Positions 14,767 to 35,554 of a DNA stretch of 35,554 nt are shown one piece after another. Source of the stretch: Acidimicrobiia bacterium (lineage in GTDB: Bacteria; Actinomycetota; Acidimicrobiia; Spongiisociales; UBA5794). The notes below the pieces were generated by a model, which was not told where the DNA came from, made no database searches, and worked only from the letters and a program-made list of their open reading frames with translations. A program made the translations under genes and the position numbers. The stretch covers positions 1 to 35,554 of the forward strand of contig JARFRN010000265.1 of NCBI GenBank assembly GCA_029287195.1. The letters are read 5' to 3'. Numbering within the stretch: the first letter of the stretch is position 1; each line of letters starts with the position of its first letter.

Positions 14767-15321
14767 ATGAACCCCGATGCCGAACGGCGTTTCCGCGAGG
14801 CCTATCAAGCTCACTTGCCGTCGGTCTATGCATACTTCAAGCGTCGCACCGATGTGCAGACTGCCCAGGACGCCACTGCGGAGACCTTCCTTGTGGCGTG
14901 GCGTCGCATCGAACGTATGCCGGAAGGGGACCGAGCCCTCCCCTGGCTCTACTCGGTGGCCCGTAGGGTGCTGGCCAACCAATACCGCAGCCAGCGGCGG
15001 CGCGCCCGGCTGGCCGAAAAAGTGGGTGCCGTCGCCCAAGAACCCACGCCCACGCCCGAGACAATCGTGATGCGCAATCGTCAGCACGAGGAAGTGCTGG
15101 CGGCTCTGGCTCGACTCAAGCCCGACGATCAGGAGTTGCTCCGACTGGCGGTCTGGGAAGAGCTCCCTCACCGTCTCATCGCCGAGGCGCTCTCCTGCAG
15201 CCGCCACGCCGTTGATCAGCGCATCTACCGGGCTGCGAAACGATTGGCGAGAGAAATGCAGCATGCCGAACACATACACGTTGGCGGGACGACCCCCGAC
15301 GAACAGACAGGAACCCTGTGA
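14767..15321 (+). CDS. ECF-type RNA polymerase sigma factor
   Basis: 184 aa; FREAYQAHLPSVYAYFKRRTDVQTAQDATAETFLVAWRRIERMP (region 2) and LARLKPDDQELLRLAVWEELPHRLIAEALSCSRHAVDQRIYRAAKRL (region 4). Confidence 0.93.
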   Translation: MNPDAERRFREAYQAHLPSVYAYFKRRTDVQTAQDATAETFLVAWRRIERMPEGDRALPWLYSVARRVLANQYRSQRRRARLAEKVGAVAQEPTPTPETIVMRNRQHEEVLAALARLKPDDQELLRLAVWEELPHRLIAEALSCSRHAVDQRIYRAAKRLAREMQHAEHIHVGGTTPDEQTGTL

Positions 15322-16967
15322 TGAATCGGCTTGACGAAGCACTCGAGAGACTGCGGATCGCCAATGCAGTGCCCCGCATCGAAGAGGTGGACGCCGATGA
15401 ACTCGAGGTCGTGACTGCCCTGTTCGACGAGAGGAGGTCGAGAATGACCGCCAGATCGAACGAGCAACCGATTCGTACCTCGCCCGGGCCCGGTCTTCCG
15501 AGGCGAGCCGTCTTGGCTTTCGCCACAGCCATGACCCTGGTCCTCGCTGCGGTCGGTGTGGTTGCCCTGATGCCGGGTGGTAAAGACGAGGTGGTCTCCC
15601 TACAGACCACTGCTCCCACCGTCATGAGCACGGTCACCCCAACCACCGTGCCGCCGACGACCACCGGGCCGGTCGACACCACCATCGCATCACTACTCAC
15701 CACCTGGACTCGGGTGCCGCACGACGATGCAATATTCGGTGACGGGTCCATGGGAGTCTCGATAAACGACTTGACCCTGGGCAACAATGGGCTGGTTGCA
15801 GTAGGGACGGTCCTGTGGCAAGACGGATCATCACAGGGAGCCGCCTGGATTTCCCCGGACGGGGATTCTTGGCTCCGCGTCCCACACGATGATGCGCTGT
15901 TCGGGTCTCGCTATGGCGATACCACCCTCAACGACGTTGTTGCGTTCCAAGGTGGGTACCTGGCCGCAGGATGCAACGACGAGAGCCCCCAGCTGCTTGC
16001 CTCAGCCGATGGACTGTCATGGTCGGCAGTAGACCTCGGTGACGATCTGTTCGCCGAACCGAGCTATGAGGACCTACTGGCCGGCTGGGCACGGCGCGAT
16101 GCTGCCTTTGATGCGGGAACACAAGGCCTTGGCTGGTTCATCTCCGGCCTGGCGGTCTCGGATGACCGGATCGTGGCAGTTGGATCCGCCGGATTCGGTC
16201 AGGGGTCACCGGTCACGGGAGTCTTCGATGGTGGCCGGTTTGCCGCCGTATGGACGTCGACGGACGGCGTCACTTGGACCCGGGTGCCGCATAACGAGGC
16301 GGTATTCGGCGGTCTCGAGGACGGGGAGCAGTCGATGACCGCGGTGGCGGCAACGTCTCGAGGGTTTACGAGCATCGGCGCCGATCGATCCGGCTCGGAT
16401 TTCGATGCTGCTGTTTGGCTATCCGAGGACGGCATTTCGTGGCAACGAGTTCCCCATGACGAGTCGATATTCGGCGGCGACATGGCGGACGGCCGCCGGC
16501 TCGATCAGACGATGGTTGATCTGGTTACGGTAGGCGATGGGTTGCTCGTGGTCGGCACCGAAATCGCCGGCCCACAGGTTCCAGAAGACCTATCGGAGGA
16601 CGACGCAGACCTCGCGGTATGGCTGTCGCCCGACGGCGCGACCTGGCAGCGCCTCCCCCACGACGAGAGCGTCTTTGGGGGCGTAGACGACCAGAACGTG
16701 TGTTGCGTGGCAATGCTGACAGAAGGATTCATGGCTGTTGGCAACGAGCGCAGCAACAGTGCGACCTGGGACCCACTGGGATACGAGGCAATCGTTTGGG
16801 TCTCTGACGACGGCGTCCATTGGAGCAAATCTGCGACCGGTGAGTTCCCCCCGGGTTCGTTCATGAAATCGGTCCTGACCGTGGGTACCCGTGTCGTGGC
16901 GGTCGGCGGAATCAACAACGACGACCCCCTTGGTGCCGGCGTCGGCGCAATGTGGATTCGGGAATAG
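15321..16967 (+). CDS. Putative sigma-linked single-pass TM protein (anti-sigma-like by context) with repeat ectodomain
   Basis: TGATG overlap with the sigma-factor stop; short N-terminal cytoplasmic part, TM RRAVLAFATAMTLVLAAVGVVALMPGG, Thr/Pro linker, then repeats with W-x-RVPHDE-x-x-FGG and S-x-DG-x-x-W motifs. No HxxxCxxC zinc motif seen. Confidence 0.8.
   Translation: MNRLDEALERLRIANAVPRIEEVDADELEVVTALFDERRSRMTARSNEQPIRTSPGPGLPRRAVLAFATAMTLVLAAVGVVALMPGGKDEVVSLQTTAPTVMSTVTPTTVPPTTTGPVDTTIASLLTTWTRVPHDDAIFGDGSMGVSINDLTLGNNGLVAVGTVLWQDGSSQGAAWISPDGDSWLRVPHDDALFGSRYGDTTLNDVVAFQGGYLAAGCNDESPQLLASADGLSWSAVDLGDDLFAEPSYEDLLAGWARRDAAFDAGTQGLGWFISGLAVSDDRIVAVGSAGFGQGSPVTGVFDGGRFAAVWTSTDGVTWTRVPHNEAVFGGLEDGEQSMTAVAATSRGFTSIGADRSGSDFDAAVWLSEDGISWQRVPHDESIFGGDMADGRRLDQTMVDLVTVGDGLLVVGTEIAGPQVPEDLSEDDADLAVWLSPDGATWQRLPHDESVFGGVDDQNVCCVAMLTEGFMAVGNERSNSATWDPLGYEAIVWVSDDGVHWSKSATGEFPPGSFMKSVLTVGTRVVAVGGINNDDPLGAGVGAMWIRE
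15705..16683 (+). repeat. Protein-level repeats: five copies of W-x-R-[VL]-P-H-[DN]-[DE]-[AS]-[ILV]-F-G plus one degenerate copy
   Basis: TWTRVPHDDAIFGDG, SWLRVPHDDALFGSR, (SWSAVDLGDDLFAEP), TWTRVPHNEAVFGGL, SWQRVPHDESIFGGD, TWQRLPHDESVFGGV; DNA copies begin near 15711, 15875, 16281, 16447, 16648. Confidence 0.85.
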
Positions 16968-25829: not shown

Positions 25830-26348
25830 CTAGATACTGGGAGGCGGGTCGATCTCGACTTCGGTCACAGTCAGAACCGCAAGCGCGATGCGGCCATCCC
25901 GCAGGTGCAGTGTCGCCGTTCCCGAGGCGAAGTCGGCCCACGCCCAGCCGAACGAAACTGCTTTTTCTCCTACGGCTACCGGGCTGTATATCTCCATCTC
26001 CCCACTATTGATCGAGGCTCGCCTGACGAACTCGCTCCCGTCGAGGCCCAGCAATCCGAAGTAGCTCGTGTCCCCGTAGAAAATGGCATGCATGTCATCA
26101 GTTGATATGAGTATCCCGTCATCCACATAAAGCGCCCGAATCTGTTCGATGTCTCCTGATTCGTACGCTGTGTTGAACTCAGCAACAATCGCCGGCATGT
26201 CATCGGTGGAAGACGGAATAGGCTCGTCGCTCTCGCCTCCACCCCCCGGAACCAGCGCGATAGCCACAATGACACCACCAAATCTCTGCAACACTGCGCA
26301 ACCTTTCCTACGGCCGGATCTCACGCAAACGGGCCAGGCAATCGACAC
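25830..26348 (-). CDS. NTF2-like/SnoaL-like domain protein, probably exported
   Basis: VAEFNTAYESGDIEQIRALYVDDGILISTDDMHAIFYGDTSYFGLLGLDGSEFVRRA...GTATLHLRDGRIALAVLTVTEVEI; exact start uncertain. Confidence 0.65.
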   Translation of the reverse strand: MSIAWPVCVRSGRRKGCAVLQRFGGVIVAIALVPGGGGESDEPIPSSTDDMPAIVAEFNTAYESGDIEQIRALYVDDGILISTDDMHAIFYGDTSYFGLLGLDGSEFVRRASINSGEMEIYSPVAVGEKAVSFGWAWADFASGTATLHLRDGRIALAVLTVTEVEIDPPPSI

Positions 26349-26377: not shown

Positions 26378-26584
26378 TTATCTATGGGGCTGACCCAACC
26401 AGGCTCGACCGGCGAACAACAGCCCCGACAACACCGGGAAGATCACCAAAGTGTTTACGTCCAGGACCCACCACGAGAGTTGGTGGATGACCAACGCCAC
26501 GCCGAGCCCGATGAAGAGCCCGCCCCAGAAACCGGCCAGGGGCTTGCCGCTTGCCCATTTTCTCGGAGGTATGCCAACAGCCAT
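26378..26584 (-). CDS. Small two-TM protein
   Basis: 68 aa MAVGIPPRKWASGKPLAGFWGGLFIGLGVALVIHQLSWWVLDVNTLVIFPVLSGLLFAGRAWLGQPHR; TGATG overlap with the upstream gene stop. Confidence 0.65.
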   Translation of the reverse strand: MAVGIPPRKWASGKPLAGFWGGLFIGLGVALVIHQLSWWVLDVNTLVIFPVLSGLLFAGRAWLGQPHR

Positions 26585-27234
26585 CACAACACCCACGACG
26601 GTCCGAGAAACCCGATCAGCCCGGTCAGCGCCGCAAACAACCCGATCGTGATGACGTCGGCGGCAGCGCGCGACCCGGTTTCGGGCGCAGCACCGCCCGC
26701 CCCCGCCGTCGCTTCGGCAAAGGCTTGTCCCCGTTTGGGACGCCGCGACCGGATAGCAGTCACCGCACCGAAGACCGCCACGAGCACGCCGAGGCCGGCG
26801 GCGGCCGTGAACGGCCCGCCCTCGACTTTCACGTAGGCGCTGCCGGTGCACACCCAACCTTCGCCCGTCGTCGTGCCCTTCACCCTGTACACACCGGGGG
26901 CAAGCTGGGTAATAACGTTCGGGACGGTAACGGTTCCGCCCCAGAACTGCCCATTCCCGGACTCGCCGGCAACTGGGATGTCACCAACCACTTCCACATA
27001 GATGTCGGTCTGGCTCGGGACATCACCGGATCCGGCAGAGGCAGGCACCGTCCCAACGAGAGCAACTGTGTCCCCTTTGGCCACCACCAGGGGGTTGTTG
27101 CGAGTGAGGGTGTCGGGGGTCTGCTCGTTGATGGTTGCTCGACAGCCGCCGGTGATCTCCTGCGCTGCGGCGGCGGGAATCGTGGCGACGACAAGGCCAA
27201 GAGCCAATGCCGCGATCAATGCAACCCTCCTCAT
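26584..27234 (-). CDS. Secreted/membrane protein with signal peptide, extracytoplasmic beta-rich region and C-terminal TM segments
   Basis: MRRVALIAALALGLVVATIPAAAAQEITGGCRATINEQTPDTLTRNNPLVVAKGDTVALVGTVP...; start at 27234 overlaps preceding gene stop by 4 bp. Confidence 0.75.
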   Translation of the reverse strand: MRRVALIAALALGLVVATIPAAAAQEITGGCRATINEQTPDTLTRNNPLVVAKGDTVALVGTVPASAGSGDVPSQTDIYVEVVGDIPVAGESGNGQFWGGTVTVPNVITQLAPGVYRVKGTTTGEGWVCTGSAYVKVEGGPFTAAAGLGVLVAVFGAVTAIRSRRPKRGQAFAEATAGAGGAAPETGSRAAADVITIGLFAALTGLIGFLGPSWVL

Positions 27235-27554
27235 GACCCACCTACCAGTCCGAGCAAAGCCACGACGACCAAGACTGCTACTGCCACACCGAGCAAGACG
27301 TATGCTCTCCTGTCGGGGTTGCGGCCGCTCGGATCTAATTGCTCGAGGAGACGACCGTCGACCCAACCCTCCCAATCGTTCTCACCGCGCACCTTGGCCC
27401 AGACCCCAGCTTCTTCGATAACAACCAGGTCCACCTTGCCGACCAGGTCATCACTGGACCGGACCGCCGGATCCGGAGACTCCCATGCGTCCATTCCTTC
27501 GGGAGGGGATCGGTGGGTCGGCGTCCAGCCCGATCTGCCAACCGTTTCCGTCAT
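27231..27554 (-). CDS. SH3-like domain protein with C-terminal TM helix
   Basis: VDLVVIEEAGVWAKVRGENDWEGWVDGRLLEQL (SH3b-like) then RAYVLLGVAVAVLVVVALLGLVGGS. Confidence 0.65.
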   Translation of the reverse strand: MTETVGRSGWTPTHRSPPEGMDAWESPDPAVRSSDDLVGKVDLVVIEEAGVWAKVRGENDWEGWVDGRLLEQLDPSGRNPDRRAYVLLGVAVAVLVVVALLGLVGGS

Positions 27555-27593
27555 CGTCCATCACCTCGCATTGGGCCGGCAAGGCCGGCCGGG

Positions 27594-29927
27594 TCATCCA
27601 CCATCATGTCTTCTCAGAACCAAGCCTGTAGCGAGCAGCAGTGCGATCGTGATCGTGAGCAGAGCCGCACTGGCCGCCAGCCACGCACCAACCGTGTGAG
27701 AGAACCGGGCCTGCCCGCCGCGCGGGCTGGTGATCGCCTCGATGAGTGGTGCCGGGTCGGTGACGTCGATCACCGGGACCGAAGTCGAGGCCGTGCCGAC
27801 CATGTTGAGGTTGTTGAGATCAACGGTTGCGGCGACGCCGGCAAAGCCCCAGTGCGAGCTCGCCAGGAAGCTCGCCTGCCGGATGCCCGGCTTGCTGGCA
27901 AAGGTCGGGAAGATGCCGCCGGCAGCGAGCACCATCATCAAGACGAAGATTATCGGCAGAAAGGTCATCGCCCGATCCACCGTATCGACCGACGCCGAGA
28001 TCAGCAGGCCGAGCGCCATAGCCGCTAGACCACTCAGTATCAGAACGACCATCATCTCACCGAACGGCCAGCCGAGCAGCACCGCTTCCTCAGGACCGTT
28101 TTGGCGGGCGAGGCTGAGGCTTGCGAGGATCACCGCTTGGACAATCGTTATCGCGCCAAAGACAACTGTCTTCGATGCAACGTAGGCGCTGATCGATAGA
28201 CCGACGGCCCGCTCCCGGCGGTATAGGGGAAGCTCTTCGACGATGTCACGAATGGTGTTGAACGCCCCCAGCTCGGTGACTCCAAGCACCACAGTCAGCA
28301 CGACGAGCGGTGCACGAGAAGTCAAGCGAAGCAAGGGAGGATCGAGCTTCCCGAGCTCGCCTTCAGGCAGCGCAACGAGCAAGAGCAAGCCGAGGATCAC
28401 GGCCAAGCCGAGCCAGAGTCCCAGCGTCTTCTTGTCGGCATAGATTGATGCGACGCGACGCCGGGTCAAGACCTTGAATTGACGAAACCACTCCCAGCGA
28501 GGAAGACTGGTCGACTCCCGTGGCCCGGTGGCAGCCGCGTAGCGCGACATAGGCTCCGCTACATAGGCGGCATAGTCGCCATGTCTCTCGAAACGAGCTT
28601 TCCATTCCGCACCATCGATCTCGCTAAGCGCGCGAAACACCTCCTGGTAGTCGGCGAGCCCGAAGTATCCGGTCAAGCGCTCTGGAGGCCCGAGCCATGC
28701 GGTGCGTCCGCCGGGAGCAAGACACAGGATCCGATCGCACAGATGGAGGCTCTCCACACTGTGGGTGACGACGATCACCGTCCGACCGGCCTTGGCAAGC
28801 TCGGCCAGCAGCTCCATCAGGCTGCGTTCGTAGCCGGGATCGAGCCCCGAAGTGGGTTCGTCGAGAATGAGCAGCGAGGGCCTGGTGAGCAATTCGAGAG
28901 CTACGCTGACCCGCTTTCGCTGGCCGCCGGAGAGATTCGCCACCGGCACGTCGCGCCGCTCCGCAAGACCGAGCTCTGCGAGAACCTCAGAGATGCGCTG
29001 TTCCCGATCGGCTGCAGACACATCCGACGGGAACCTGAGCTCGGCGGCGAACTCCAGCGTCTGAGCCACCGTCAGCTCCATGTGGAGCACATCGTCCTGG
29101 GGGACGTAGCCGATGCGCTGGCGAATGTGCTCGTATTCCGCATAGAGATCCCGGCCGGAGAAGAACACGGAACCCTCGGTCGCAGGGCGGAATCCAGTGA
29201 GCGCATTTACCAGGGTCGACTTGCCGGAGCCGGACGGACCCACCACACCGAGGAAGGATCCCTCGTCGAGCGCAAAGCTGATCCCATCGAGAATCACCTT
29301 GCCTTGCGATGTGACCACACGCAGATCCAAAGCTGCGTAGGAGACACCGGGACGGGGCTCGACCGAACGCAGCCCGTCCGGTCCGAACACCAGCGAGGTC
29401 CCGCCGACGCCGACCACATCGCCCAGCAGCACTGGGGCCCGTGACACCTTCGCACCGTTGACGAAGGTTCCGTTCTGGCTTCCCAGATCCACAATCTCGC
29501 ATGATCCGTCGCCGGCCACGAGCTCGGCGTGGTGGCGCGACACCATGAGGTCGTCTATCACGATGTCATTGCCGGGATCACGCCCGATGCTCTGACCACC
29601 GCCCGGCGCAACATCGCCGGTAGTCGTGAACGCGACCACCGGACCTTCGGTCGGATGCCCCAGCGAGATCAAGGTACTCCCACGCAGCGCAACCTCGCCC
29701 ACCCTCGATCCATCAATGAATGTACCGTTGCTGCTGCTCAGATCACGTACTACCCAGCCTGCCTCGGTATCTCTGATTTCGAAGTGGCGACGAGACACCA
29801 GTGGGTGGTCGATGACGAAATCGCATGTAGGGTCTCGTCCGATCGCAGTAGGCCCGTCGCTGGCCAGAGGGGCCACCTGCGTCCCCCAGCGCAGCCGACC
29901 GACCCCGGTGGAGGTGTCCCTAGCCAC
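27594..29927 (-). CDS. Tandem-FHA ABC transporter (ABCG-like ATPase plus permease in one chain; Rv1747-like)
   Basis: Two FHA domains (GRDPTCDFVIDHPLVSRRHFEI..SSSNGTFIDG; GRDPGNDIVIDDLMVSRHHAEL..GSQNGTFVNG), Walker A GPSGSGKST, LSGGQRKRVSVALELLTRPSLLILDEPTSGLD, C-terminal multi-TM. GTG start 29927 overlaps kinase stop by 8 bp. Confidence 0.93.
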   Translation of the reverse strand: MARDTSTGVGRLRWGTQVAPLASDGPTAIGRDPTCDFVIDHPLVSRRHFEIRDTEAGWVVRDLSSSNGTFIDGSRVGEVALRGSTLISLGHPTEGPVVAFTTTGDVAPGGGQSIGRDPGNDIVIDDLMVSRHHAELVAGDGSCEIVDLGSQNGTFVNGAKVSRAPVLLGDVVGVGGTSLVFGPDGLRSVEPRPGVSYAALDLRVVTSQGKVILDGISFALDEGSFLGVVGPSGSGKSTLVNALTGFRPATEGSVFFSGRDLYAEYEHIRQRIGYVPQDDVLHMELTVAQTLEFAAELRFPSDVSAADREQRISEVLAELGLAERRDVPVANLSGGQRKRVSVALELLTRPSLLILDEPTSGLDPGYERSLMELLAELAKAGRTVIVVTHSVESLHLCDRILCLAPGGRTAWLGPPERLTGYFGLADYQEVFRALSEIDGAEWKARFERHGDYAAYVAEPMSRYAAATGPRESTSLPRWEWFRQFKVLTRRRVASIYADKKTLGLWLGLAVILGLLLLVALPEGELGKLDPPLLRLTSRAPLVVLTVVLGVTELGAFNTIRDIVEELPLYRRERAVGLSISAYVASKTVVFGAITIVQAVILASLSLARQNGPEEAVLLGWPFGEMMVVLILSGLAAMALGLLISASVDTVDRAMTFLPIIFVLMMVLAAGGIFPTFASKPGIRQASFLASSHWGFAGVAATVDLNNLNMVGTASTSVPVIDVTDPAPLIEAITSPRGGQARFSHTVGAWLAASAALLTITIALLLATGLVLRRHDGG

Positions 29928-32250
29928 TGGTGGCAGAAATGGGCGAAGAGCTTTCCCCGACGCTGAGAGTCCCGCTGTCGCCGGCCACCACTTCGCCGTC
30001 GACCTTCAGCTCGAGTTGGTATGTGCCCGGGGAACCGCAACTTCCTTCGTAGTGCAGCACGAAAGCCTGGTAGGTACCGGGGATCGAGCCGCCTTCAGGC
30101 CAGAAAACGTTCTCCACGTTGGAGGCACTGGTGTCCCCGCAGTCGGGCACCATGTCGACATCGAGCGTTCCGCCACTCGACGAGACCGGAGCCTCGAAGT
30201 AGATCTCGAAACCCTCGGGGTCGATCACATGCAGGTCGAGATCGGCGTCCCCGGTCCAGCGCAATGTGGCTTGGACGTCGCCCGTACCAAGCTCGATCGT
30301 GGTCGTCGTCATAGCCTGCGTCGTCGTTGTGGTCTCGGGCGCCACTATCGGAAGCCCACCGACGGGCTTGACAAAGACACGCGTACTCAGGATGTCGTTG
30401 ACGTCGAACCCGAGGACCTCTTCGATCGCCCTGACGACAACCGTGTTGCCCAGATCAAACCCGGGCCATTCCGTGCCCCGGACGGTGACCGACGCGGACA
30501 ACTCGACGGCGGGAAGCAAGGGGTTGCCGCAAAAGCAGCGAACCCGGGGCAATCCGAACGTGTCGACCAACACCGCAGTGCCCGCCTGCAACACCGAGTT
30601 GATCGGGTTGGCGGCGCCGTTGCGGAAGCCATGGTTGGTTACCCGGGTATCGACCTGCAGGATCACATCCGTCAGGCTTTCGATGAATTCCGGGATGTCG
30701 GCGACGTCAATGCCCTGAACTGCGGCCCAAGCGGCGGCTTTGTCCAGGTTGTCCTGCATGAACCTGATGAGGGCGTCCTTGTCGCAGGCGGTGAGTATCT
30801 CGGTTCCACCGTAGAGCCCGGGAGCAGCGCCGGATACGGTCGACACCACCGTCTCTGCCGTCTCGGCAACTTCCTCCTCGGCAGCCGCCAGATCGGGACC
30901 CGGCGGAGCGACGCTCAATCCGGGGACTTCGAAGTCATCGAAGTCGATCCCGGAGAGTTCCCCGACGGGCGGATTCAACAAATCGACCATGCGCCGTACC
31001 ATCTCGGGATCTACCGTCGGTATCGTCGGCAGTGCCACTGGTTGCGGAACGATCGTGGGTGTAAAGGGATCGATCCCGGTAGAAGCAACCGGCTCGGCAA
31101 ACACCTCGGTGATGTCGGGACCTTCATCCTCACCGCCGGTCAGCAAGACCAGCCCCCCAACTATTGCACCGGCAACGACCACCAACCCCACCAGCGGCAA
31201 CACCAGGCCTCGCCTCTTCCTACGCCGGCTCGGTGGCGGTGGCGGGGGGGTGCCGGTGGCAGCGGGCGGTGGCGGCGGCCCTCCGGCCGATGGCTGCTGT
31301 GCCGCCGGGTTAGCGGGCGGTTGCGCGCTCGCCTGGGCAGCCAGGAATTGCTCGGCGGTCATCGTTGCAGCCATCAGCGGTGTCTCCGGCTCGGCAGGTG
31401 CGGGAGCGACGGCCGCCACCCCACCCGCGGCACGGGCACTCTGCAGCGCGTCCGCCCATTCCTCGATAGAAGCGAAGCGATCGGCAGGATCGACCGCCAG
31501 GCCTTTCATCACCGCGTCGGCAAGGGGCCCAGGAGTGTCCGGACGCAATAGCCCGATCGCCACCGGCGGAGCTGCCGACTGCGCCTTGATGACCTCAGTC
31601 ACGGAGTCGAAGGCATAGGGAACGCGCCCGGCGAGCAACTCGTAGAGGATCACTGCTGCGCTGTAGATATCGGTCCGTTGGTCGACCCGTCCTTCGGCCT
31701 GCTCGGGTGCCATGTAGTGGGGTGTCCCCGTGGCCACGGTCGTCTTGGATTTGGCGATTGACTTGGCGATGCCGAAGTCGGCGAGGACCAGCTGGGGCTC
31801 ATCGGTTCCCTGGATCGTCTGGAACAGAACTGCTGAGGGCTTGAGATCGCGATGCACGATGTCGAGGGCATGCGCCGCCTGCAGACCGGATGCAATAGCA
31901 ATCGAGAGGTCGACAGCCTCATCGACCGTGAATTGCCGCCGGGTTTGGGCCTTCTTCCGCATGCGGTCTTCGAGCGACCCCTGATCGGCCAGAGCCATCA
32001 CCATGTAGGGGCGACCATCCTCGAGCACGTCGATGTGATGAATACGAACTATGTGCGGCGACTGGGCGCGCCACAGGATCCTGGCCTCATCGAGGAAACG
32101 CTGTCGGACGTCCTCGTCGTGGACCCAGTTGTCGGCCAGCACCTTGATGGCGACATCGACCCCGAGCTCGTCATCGTGGCCCAGCCACACGGTGGCAAAC
32201 GAACCGCTCCCTAGAACCCGCTCGATGTCATAGCGGCCGATCTTCTCCAC
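29920..32250 (-). CDS. Transmembrane Ser/Thr protein kinase with DUF6777-like and YfaP/DUF2135-like extracytoplasmic domains
   Basis: LGSGSFATVWLG, VAIKVL, HRDLKPSAVLF, LADFGIAKS, GTPHYMAPEQ; Pro-rich juxtamembrane, TM RGLVLPLVGLVVVAGAIVGGLVLLTGG, YGGTEILTACDKDALIRFMQDNLDKAAAWA..DTRVTNHGF..VLQAGTAVLVDTFGLPRVRCFCGNPL, and LRWTGDADLDLHVIDPEGFEIYF. Confidence 0.92.
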   Translation of the reverse strand: MEKIGRYDIERVLGSGSFATVWLGHDDELGVDVAIKVLADNWVHDEDVRQRFLDEARILWRAQSPHIVRIHHIDVLEDGRPYMVMALADQGSLEDRMRKKAQTRRQFTVDEAVDLSIAIASGLQAAHALDIVHRDLKPSAVLFQTIQGTDEPQLVLADFGIAKSIAKSKTTVATGTPHYMAPEQAEGRVDQRTDIYSAAVILYELLAGRVPYAFDSVTEVIKAQSAAPPVAIGLLRPDTPGPLADAVMKGLAVDPADRFASIEEWADALQSARAAGGVAAVAPAPAEPETPLMAATMTAEQFLAAQASAQPPANPAAQQPSAGGPPPPPAATGTPPPPPPSRRRKRRGLVLPLVGLVVVAGAIVGGLVLLTGGEDEGPDITEVFAEPVASTGIDPFTPTIVPQPVALPTIPTVDPEMVRRMVDLLNPPVGELSGIDFDDFEVPGLSVAPPGPDLAAAEEEVAETAETVVSTVSGAAPGLYGGTEILTACDKDALIRFMQDNLDKAAAWAAVQGIDVADIPEFIESLTDVILQVDTRVTNHGFRNGAANPINSVLQAGTAVLVDTFGLPRVRCFCGNPLLPAVELSASVTVRGTEWPGFDLGNTVVVRAIEEVLGFDVNDILSTRVFVKPVGGLPIVAPETTTTTQAMTTTTIELGTGDVQATLRWTGDADLDLHVIDPEGFEIYFEAPVSSSGGTLDVDMVPDCGDTSASNVENVFWPEGGSIPGTYQAFVLHYEGSCGSPGTYQLELKVDGEVVAGDSGTLSVGESSSPISATSG

Positions 32251-32406: not shown

Positions 32407-32646
32407 TCAGACGGTGCCCATCTTGCGACGTGGCCGGCCGAACAGCACCGCCAACCCATGCGCCAGCAGACCTATCCCCCACGGCACGAACGTCCAGTAG
32501 GCCCAGTCGAGCCCACCTCCCGCAATCAGATCCTGGGCGACGATGATGGCGTTCACCACGACGTAGAAAGTGGCGTGCCACCAAAATGTGTGTACGTCGT
32601 CGCGGTGCTTCTCATCCGGCGTCTTGGGCTGCGCAGCCATTTGCAC
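32407..32646 (-). CDS. 2TM domain-containing protein
   Basis: DDVHTFWWHATFYVVVNAIIVAQDLIAGGGLDWAYWTFVPWGIGLLAHGLAVLF matches the 2TM (HxxxYxxVN...WGIGL..H) pattern. Confidence 0.8.
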   Translation of the reverse strand: MQMAAQPKTPDEKHRDDVHTFWWHATFYVVVNAIIVAQDLIAGGGLDWAYWTFVPWGIGLLAHGLAVLFGRPRRKMGTV

Positions 32647-34710: not shown

Positions 34711-35526
34711 CTACGAGACGGTGAAGCTGGCAACACCGCCCTTGATACGCAGCTCCAGGCGGTCGACGGCCAAGTCGTAGTCGGGGGATTCATAGACCCC
34801 GCCCATCATTGGGAAGCGACGGGTATCCACCTTGACCTCGGCGAGACCAGTATCCGCTGCGATGCGAGCCGCTACCCCGTCGGGGATGACGAAGGTCACC
34901 GATGCAGCCCCGGCATCGACCGTCGCCCGGGTGTGTCCCTGACGCGGTGCAACAACCCGAGTCGAGCTGGCGCCGGTCTTCAGTTGCAGCGAACTCACCA
35001 TCAAGCTCTCGAGATCGATTCTCGTGTCGGTTGCGCCCGTGTTGAATTCCAGCTCGAGGTCGACCTCCGGATTTAGATCGGCGACGAAATCCCGGCGGCG
35101 GAGCCGCATCCACGAGCCGTGAGCCTGTCGCAACGACACGTCGATCCGATCCCCGGACCGCTTCACCCGCTGCTCGAGTCCATACCCCGATCCGATGCAG
35201 AGCGACCGGCTGCCGAGAGCGAGGCTGCCCACCCGCAACTCGCCGCCCCCGTGGTCGATCTTGACGCGGGCTCGACGCGCACTCTCGAGCGGCACATCGA
35301 TGACATCGCTGCGCACGGGGCGATCCCGGAGCGACGACACGATTACCAATATCCCTGCGGCAATCAGCAGGCCGGGGACGAGGAAATCGGAGTCAATGGC
35401 TTCGATGTCTCTCAGCAGGAAGAACGCGCCGAGGCCGATGAGGAGCAGTGGCGCCAACCACGAGATGCCCCGGCCCTTCAGAATCTGGTCGATGAGGATC
35501 GCCACGCCGATAACGATGAGGACGCC
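34711..35526 (-). CDS. LiaF/toast-rack-like membrane protein, 5' end truncated at contig end
   Basis: Multiple N-terminal TM segments (GVLIVIGVAILIDQILKG..WLAPLLLIGLGAFFLLRDI..FLVPGLLIAAGILVIVSS) then a beta-rich C-terminal domain (GGGELRVGSLALGS.. LELEFNTGATDTRIDLESL.. LKTGASSTRVVAP). The MYKRQ start in the track is adapter-derived. Confidence 0.75.
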   Translation of the reverse strand, partial: GVLIVIGVAILIDQILKGRGISWLAPLLLIGLGAFFLLRDIEAIDSDFLVPGLLIAAGILVIVSSLRDRPVRSDVIDVPLESARRARVKIDHGGGELRVGSLALGSRSLCIGSGYGLEQRVKRSGDRIDVSLRQAHGSWMRLRRRDFVADLNPEVDLELEFNTGATDTRIDLESLMVSSLQLKTGASSTRVVAPRQGHTRATVDAGAASVTFVIPDGVAARIAADTGLAEVKVDTRRFPMMGGVYESPDYDLAVDRLELRIKGGVASFTVS

Positions 35527-35554
35527 CTGTCTCTTATACACATCTGACGCTGCC
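35527..35554. other. Nextera transposase adapter read-through (sequencing artefact)
   Basis: CTGTCTCTTATACACATCTGACGCTGCC is the Nextera mosaic-end reverse complement plus adapter continuation; creates the spurious MYKRQ / SLIHI peptide ends in the ORF track. Confidence 0.98.

Follow-up and report, generated by a model that had tools for sequence, protein, structure and literature searches.

A kinase, FHA-ABC transporter and DUF6777 gene cluster in Acidimicrobiia: a probable link between a membrane sensor kinase and export under phosphorylation control

Introduction

FHA domains bind phosphothreonine and commonly serve as recruiting modules. In the tandem-FHA ABC transporter Rv1747, the sites phosphorylated by the Ser/Thr kinase PknF lie in the long linker between the two FHA domains. 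PknF of Mycobacterium tuberculosis phosphorylates Rv1747 in vitro and modulates it positively (PMC3908365). The FHA I domain of Rv1747 binds phosphorylated Rv2623, mutants show altered PIM levels, and phosphothreonine binding at this domain bears on both growth and PIM levels (PMC5549992).

Here we describe a related locus in a stretch of 35,554 nucleotides (hereafter the window; contig C297) from an Acidimicrobiia bacterium. The source assembly has 3.59 Mb in 305 contigs, is 83% complete and is very probably a metagenome-assembled genome. As in the PknF-Rv1747 system, a gene for a Hanks-type kinase is followed by a gene for a tandem-FHA ABC half-transporter with a fused membrane domain. Unlike that system, the kinase has an ectodomain made of DUF6777 and a YfaP-like domain, and genes for three small proteins (SH3, SECR and STM) are added. 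The operon probably links sensing by a membrane kinase to an exporter under phosphorylation control, and its core, a relative of the mycobacterial pair, is found again across actinobacteria. The kinase and FHA-ABC arrangement is of a known kind; DUF6777, SH3 and SECR-STM are a recurring, uncharacterised set of partners.

Gene organization of the locus

All five ORFs of a preliminary description are present on the minus strand at 26378-32250 (Table 1). Their coordinates bear out the tight packing that it reported: the kinase and FHA-ABC genes overlap by 8 bp, the FHA-ABC and SH3-TM genes are separated by a 39-bp gap (27555-27593), and the SH3-TM/SECR and SECR/STM junctions are overlaps of 4 bp and 1 bp, respectively. 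A promoter and terminator scan of the locus gave 0 promoter-like sites, against 1.0 expected.

Table 1. Features of the five-gene locus, in window coordinates.
Feature	Position	Strand	Remarks
Ser/Thr protein kinase	29920..32250	-	776 aa; aa 1-285, cytosolic kinase domain
DUF6777 domain (PF20568) of the kinase	30364..30840	-	Extracytoplasmic; Pfam and structure model
C-terminal beta-rich ("YfaP-like") domain of the kinase	29923..30288	-	No Pfam match; structure model
Motif AATMTAEQFL of the kinase	31345..31374	-	aa 293-302, with T296; alignment; juxtamembrane linker
FHA-FHA-ABC half-transporter	27594..29927	-	777 aa
Domains of the half-transporter			FHA1, aa 28-90; FHA2, aa 113-184; ATPase, aa 213-360; ABC2-type membrane domain from about aa 482
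SH3-TM protein	27231..27554	-	107 aa; SH3-like domain, C-terminal TM helix, no signal peptide
SECR (Ig-like membrane protein)	26584..27234	-	216 aa
STM (small 2-TM protein)	26378..26584	-	68 aa

A short 2TM-domain protein (PF13239, 2.3e-12) is encoded at 32407-32646, on the kinase strand and 156 bp upstream of the kinase. Elsewhere in the window, a sigma-factor-like ORF (14767-15321, plus strand) overlaps by 4 bp an ORF of 549 aa that has an N-terminal TM helix and repeated VPHD(D/E)(A/S)(I/V/L)FGG motifs; the pair, in the region 14767-16967, may be a sigma factor and its membrane-bound partner. The right end of the window (35528-35554, ctgtctcttatacacatctgacgctgcc) is a Nextera transposase adapter remaining in the contig, so that the ORF at 34711-35541 (minus strand) starts with a false MYKRQ.

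Conservation of the gene cluster

Orthologs of the FHA-ABC transporter were found in five other genomes of the same genus, at 68-89% identity. The content and order of the five genes are kept in all five, two of the contigs stopping inside the cluster (one cuts the kinase, the other STM). The pN/pS ratios of all five genes, including the 68-aa STM, are 0.14-0.44, as expected under purifying selection. The conserved order and these ratios together show that the cluster is not a product of chance. One more genome of the genus (G003, 97% complete) has no match for the FHA-ABC ortholog, DUF6777, SECR or SH3. Downstream of STM the window has a SnoaL-like gene (25830-26348), for which no counterpart turned up next to the cluster in the relatives; the conserved block therefore ends at STM.

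The nearest other family of the same order is represented by G042, where the gene for a full-length kinase-DUF6777-YfaP protein (815 aa) and the FHA-ABC gene downstream of it are 10 bp apart. The kinase and the FHA-ABC transporter are a real, conserved pair. No SH3, SECR or STM gene adjoins the G042 pair, so the small genes are not obligatory, and the accessory genes do vary between loci. Co-conservation of the three small genes with the kinase and transporter, the lack of which would have counted against the preliminary description by its own terms, holds within the genus (5/5) and breaks down in G042, whose pair stands without any of them. A first tblastn search had suggested that the G042 kinase lacks its kinase domain; this was ruled out by the ORF list, which contains a complete kinase.

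The transporter and its comparison with Rv1747

Pfam identifies two FHA domains, ABC_tran and ABC2_membrane in a single chain. In the alignment, the phosphothreonine-binding residues are present in both FHA1 (G30, R31, S45, H48, N67 and G68) and FHA2 (G115, R116, S130, H133, N152 and G153), and the G-R/S-H/N-G motifs of the FHA domains and the ABC motifs are intact. The inter-FHA linker of the window protein is about 15-20 aa long, and the alignment has no Thr in it that is conserved across the genus; L242, an Rv1747-like protein, has a linker of about 130 aa. A phosphothreonine ligand within this linker is therefore improbable; the ligand is probably the activation loop of the kinase, the T296 motif or a partner protein.

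In a tree of 32 FHA-ABC proteins, the DUF6777-adjacent transporters of Acidimicrobiia group together (94/98, open fork). Streptomyces-type transporters (see below) form another clade, near Rv1747-like proteins. The Rv1747-like transporters of family f78, presumably Mycobacteriaceae, belong to a well-supported clade separate from the window protein, and no DUF6777 or SH3 match was found near them. With this tree and the short linker without a conserved Thr, we consider it very unlikely that the locus is an ordinary orthologous PknF-Rv1747 system in which the kinase merely has a different ectodomain, even though the domain order of the transporter and the upstream position of the kinase gene are the same as in pknF-Rv1747 (PMC3908365). 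The earlier parallel with PknF-Rv1747 thus stands for the adjacent kinase and tandem-FHA ABC genes, conserved in relatives, and does not extend to clade membership or to the long linker.

The FHA domains could instead act as a scaffold at the membrane, to which the activated kinase or further phosphoproteins are drawn, with the ABC part exporting constitutively and without gating. Such recruiting is a common FHA role, and a linker without conserved Thr would agree with it. By analogy, however, PknF positively modulates Rv1747 function (PMC3908365) and both growth and PIM levels are connected with phosphothreonine binding at FHA I (PMC5549992), and we regard an ungated scaffold as unlikely.

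A second FHA-ABC paralog is encoded in the genome of the window (L039, G000:C158:23217-25421; 48% identity). It adjoins a divergent tandem-FHA gene and another Ser/Thr kinase, and the same arrangement was observed in G006 (L040).

The kinase and its DUF6777 ectodomain

In the kinase, the kinase domain is followed by an Ala/Pro-rich linker and a single TM helix (about aa 353-371), and then by DUF6777 and the YfaP-like domain. The kinase domain was recognized by Pfam (Pkinase, 7.8e-39), and its VAIK, HRDLK and DFG motifs are intact in the alignment. DUF6777 was found at aa 471-629 with an E-value of 1.9e-53 and 181 bits, far above the gathering score of 27, which confirms the DUF6777-like part of the ectodomain suggested before. 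In the structure model the ectodomain has two confident beta-rich domains. The second of them, previously described as YfaP-like, is thus a confident separate domain, although the name has no Pfam match behind it. A fold search with the ectodomain gave no PDB match at E<=1e-3, and weak matches to DUF4425 and MmpS5 were set aside. No paper in the literature collection searched contains the term DUF6777.

The best NCBIfam match of the kinase is the PASTA PknB/Stk1 family (NF033483), at 217 bits versus a cut-off of 450. Like the PASTA kinases, it combines a cytosolic Hanks kinase, a juxtamembrane linker, a TM helix and an extracellular sensor. Unlike them, it has no PASTA repeats; DUF6777 and the YfaP-like domain take their place.

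The AATMTAEQFL motif is conserved although the rest of the juxtamembrane linker is variable. It is also present in L163 and L177, and is missing from L160, L165 and L185. From this pattern of conservation, T296 is a candidate phosphosite for FHA docking.

In the loci surveyed, DUF6777 is mostly located behind a TM helix, and the cytosolic parts vary: kinases, an Hsp70-type ATPase (L155), Pro-rich tails, a TIR-like segment (L038, by motif only) and zinc-ribbon-like segments (L161, L168). Such a layout is what one expects of an input domain outside the cytoplasm. In L155 (G225:C190, 2271-4349) the Hsp70-type ATPase (Pfam, 4.3e-52), a TM helix and DUF6777 form one protein with a chaperone-like output. 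The L038 locus (G049:C5, 5249-14554) contains FHA-ABC, kinase, vWA-like, PP2C-like and patatin-like genes and a TIR-like-TM-DUF6777 protein, all identified by motif except Pkinase and DUF6777, which were identified by profile. It resembles a TerY-P-type stress or defence cluster. A tandem-FHA ABC gene near a kinase and a DUF6777 protein is shared with the window; the kinase is different, the DUF6777 protein is TIR-like, and the vWA/PP2C-like and patatin-like genes are extra.

Small accessory proteins

The SH3 protein matches SH3_3 (PF08239) below the threshold (E 0.022, 15.4 bits versus a cut-off of 27). One of its relatives (L156) just reaches the SH3_16 cut-off, with 25.8 bits, and the window protein is therefore SH3-like by homology. 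NCBIfam yields no name for the SH3 protein or for the STM-like-DUF6777 fusion described below, and SECR and STM match no family in Pfam or NCBIfam. Arg residues precede the C-terminal TM helix of the SH3 protein, and its relatives near DUF6777 or FHA-ABC genes also lack signal peptides. The missing signal peptide, the tail anchor and the positive-inside rule make it most likely that the SH3 domain is on the cytosolic side, with the kinase and the FHA domains. The proposal of three periplasm-facing accessory proteins consequently fails for SH3. The juxtamembrane tails of SH3-linked DUF6777 proteins are somewhat richer in Pro (medians 15.5 versus 9.5, p = 0.035, each related sequence being counted on its own), a weak lead that the SH3 domain may dock on these tails.

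The AlphaFold2 model of SECR (mean pLDDT 70, pTM 0.49) has a signal helix, an Ig-like beta-sandwich (33-137) and TM helices at 141-162 and 187-209. With two TM helices after the beta-sandwich, SECR is predicted to be membrane-anchored, and its former description as a secreted protein is not consistent with the model. Residues C31 and C129 are invariant across the family. A fold search with SECR found generic beta-sandwiches only.

Genomic linkage across Acidimicrobiia

We surveyed 296 Acidimicrobiia genomes, counting related genomes separately. With this counting, seven of ten FHA-ABC genes are located less than 5 kb from DUF6777, where 0.08 would be expected within 10 kb, and eight of the nine genomes with FHA-ABC also hold DUF6777 (p = 2e-6, kin again counted separately). 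The FHA-ABC genes of L206 and L207 have no DUF6777 nearby. Kinase-DUF6777 and FHA-ABC genes are divergent neighbours in three further families (L160, L163 and L177). Linkage of SH3 to DUF6777 was observed in six genomes.

SECR-DUF6777 pairs within 10 kb were found in five genomes, versus 0.11 expected, and SECR-STM occurs beside DUF6777 in three distant families. It is located downstream of the DUF6777 gene in L187 and beside the kinase-DUF6777/FHA-ABC genes in L160. In L159 a DUF6777 gene begins within the last part of SECR, and its product has an STM-like N-terminal segment with two TM helices. SECR and STM are also found side by side away from DUF6777 (L195, L198, L199, L202 and L203), and are fused into one ORF in L196 and L197. 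The fusion and neighbour evidence argues that SECR-STM acts with DUF6777 proteins, though not exclusively.

Alternatively, only the kinase and the FHA-ABC transporter, with SH3, would be coupled, and SECR-STM would be an independent envelope unit merely co-transcribed downstream. Its stand-alone occurrence in many Acidimicrobiia and its absence beside the G042 pair agree with such independence. The vicinity of SECR to DUF6777 genes in three other families and the L159 overlap and fusion speak against it, and we find it rather unlikely.

A related locus in a probable Streptomyces genus

Five genomes of one genus with 8-10 Mb carry DUF6777 (L236-L240). The genus is probably Streptomyces, and probably of another class than the window. 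In all five, genes for FHA-ABC, SH3 and a soluble Ser/Thr kinase follow each other in this order on one strand, and a DUF6777 membrane protein is encoded 3.6-4.6 kb away from FHA-ABC. In L236 a streptophobe-family gene (NF038391, 1.8e-163) lies on the opposite strand between the kinase and DUF6777; this gene and the size of the genomes are what points to Streptomyces. As in the window, SH3 directly follows FHA-ABC, which shows that SH3 is not specific to the genus of the window, and a kinase and a DUF6777 membrane protein are close by. Unlike in the window, the kinase is soluble and of another type, DUF6777 is a separate protein, and no match for SECR or STM was found. The kinase-DUF6777 protein of the window thus joins what are two genes in L236-L240. 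Because the transporters of the two groups fall into different clades, the shared gene set must either go back to a common ancestor, with later losses, or have come together on two occasions. A literature search on FHA-ABC systems in Streptomyces found no paper describing a locus of this type.

The SH3 proteins of L236-L240 have no TM helix but, unlike that of the window, a Thr-bearing tail. All five end in T-x-(I/L/V)-V, some with repeated EPT(R/Q)VV copies, and three kinase tails of the Streptomyces-type cluster carry APTxVD. Judged by these motifs, both kinds of tail are plausible FHA ligands; those of SH3 would be possible FHA-binding phosphosites on a cytosolic adaptor.

Proposed mechanism and biological meaning

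With moderate confidence, we propose that the five genes form one operon for envelope signalling and a phospho-FHA-controlled export complex. We infer that the genes are co-transcribed and that their products associate physically. The DUF6777/YfaP-like ectodomain, probably with SECR and STM, would sense a presumed signal from outside the cytoplasmic membrane, be it a ligand or a state, and switch on the cytosolic Ser/Thr kinase. Phosphothreonine at putative sites on the kinase (its activation loop or the T296 motif), on the SH3 adaptor or on the transporter would then be bound by the two FHA domains. This docking would turn transport up or down, the presumed direction being export and the presumed substrate a lipid or glycolipid, or less probably some other component of the envelope. 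More generally, DUF6777 might be an actinobacterial extracytoplasmic sensor cassette placed on different cytosolic outputs and working with an SH3 adaptor, an FHA-ABC exporter and a SECR-STM co-receptor; we offer this tentatively and with less than even confidence.

The uncharacterised DUF6777 and three unannotated small proteins are hereby tied to a kinase/FHA-transporter pathway. The set is found again far outside the genus of the window, so that concrete tests are possible in culturable Streptomyces. The locus also provides a comparison case for the signals sensed by PknF and Rv1747 and for their regulation. If the proposal is true, DUF6777, SH3, FHA-ABC and SECR-STM would make up a transmembrane signalling system that has so far not been described as one, and the window would contain, in one operon, every part of it.
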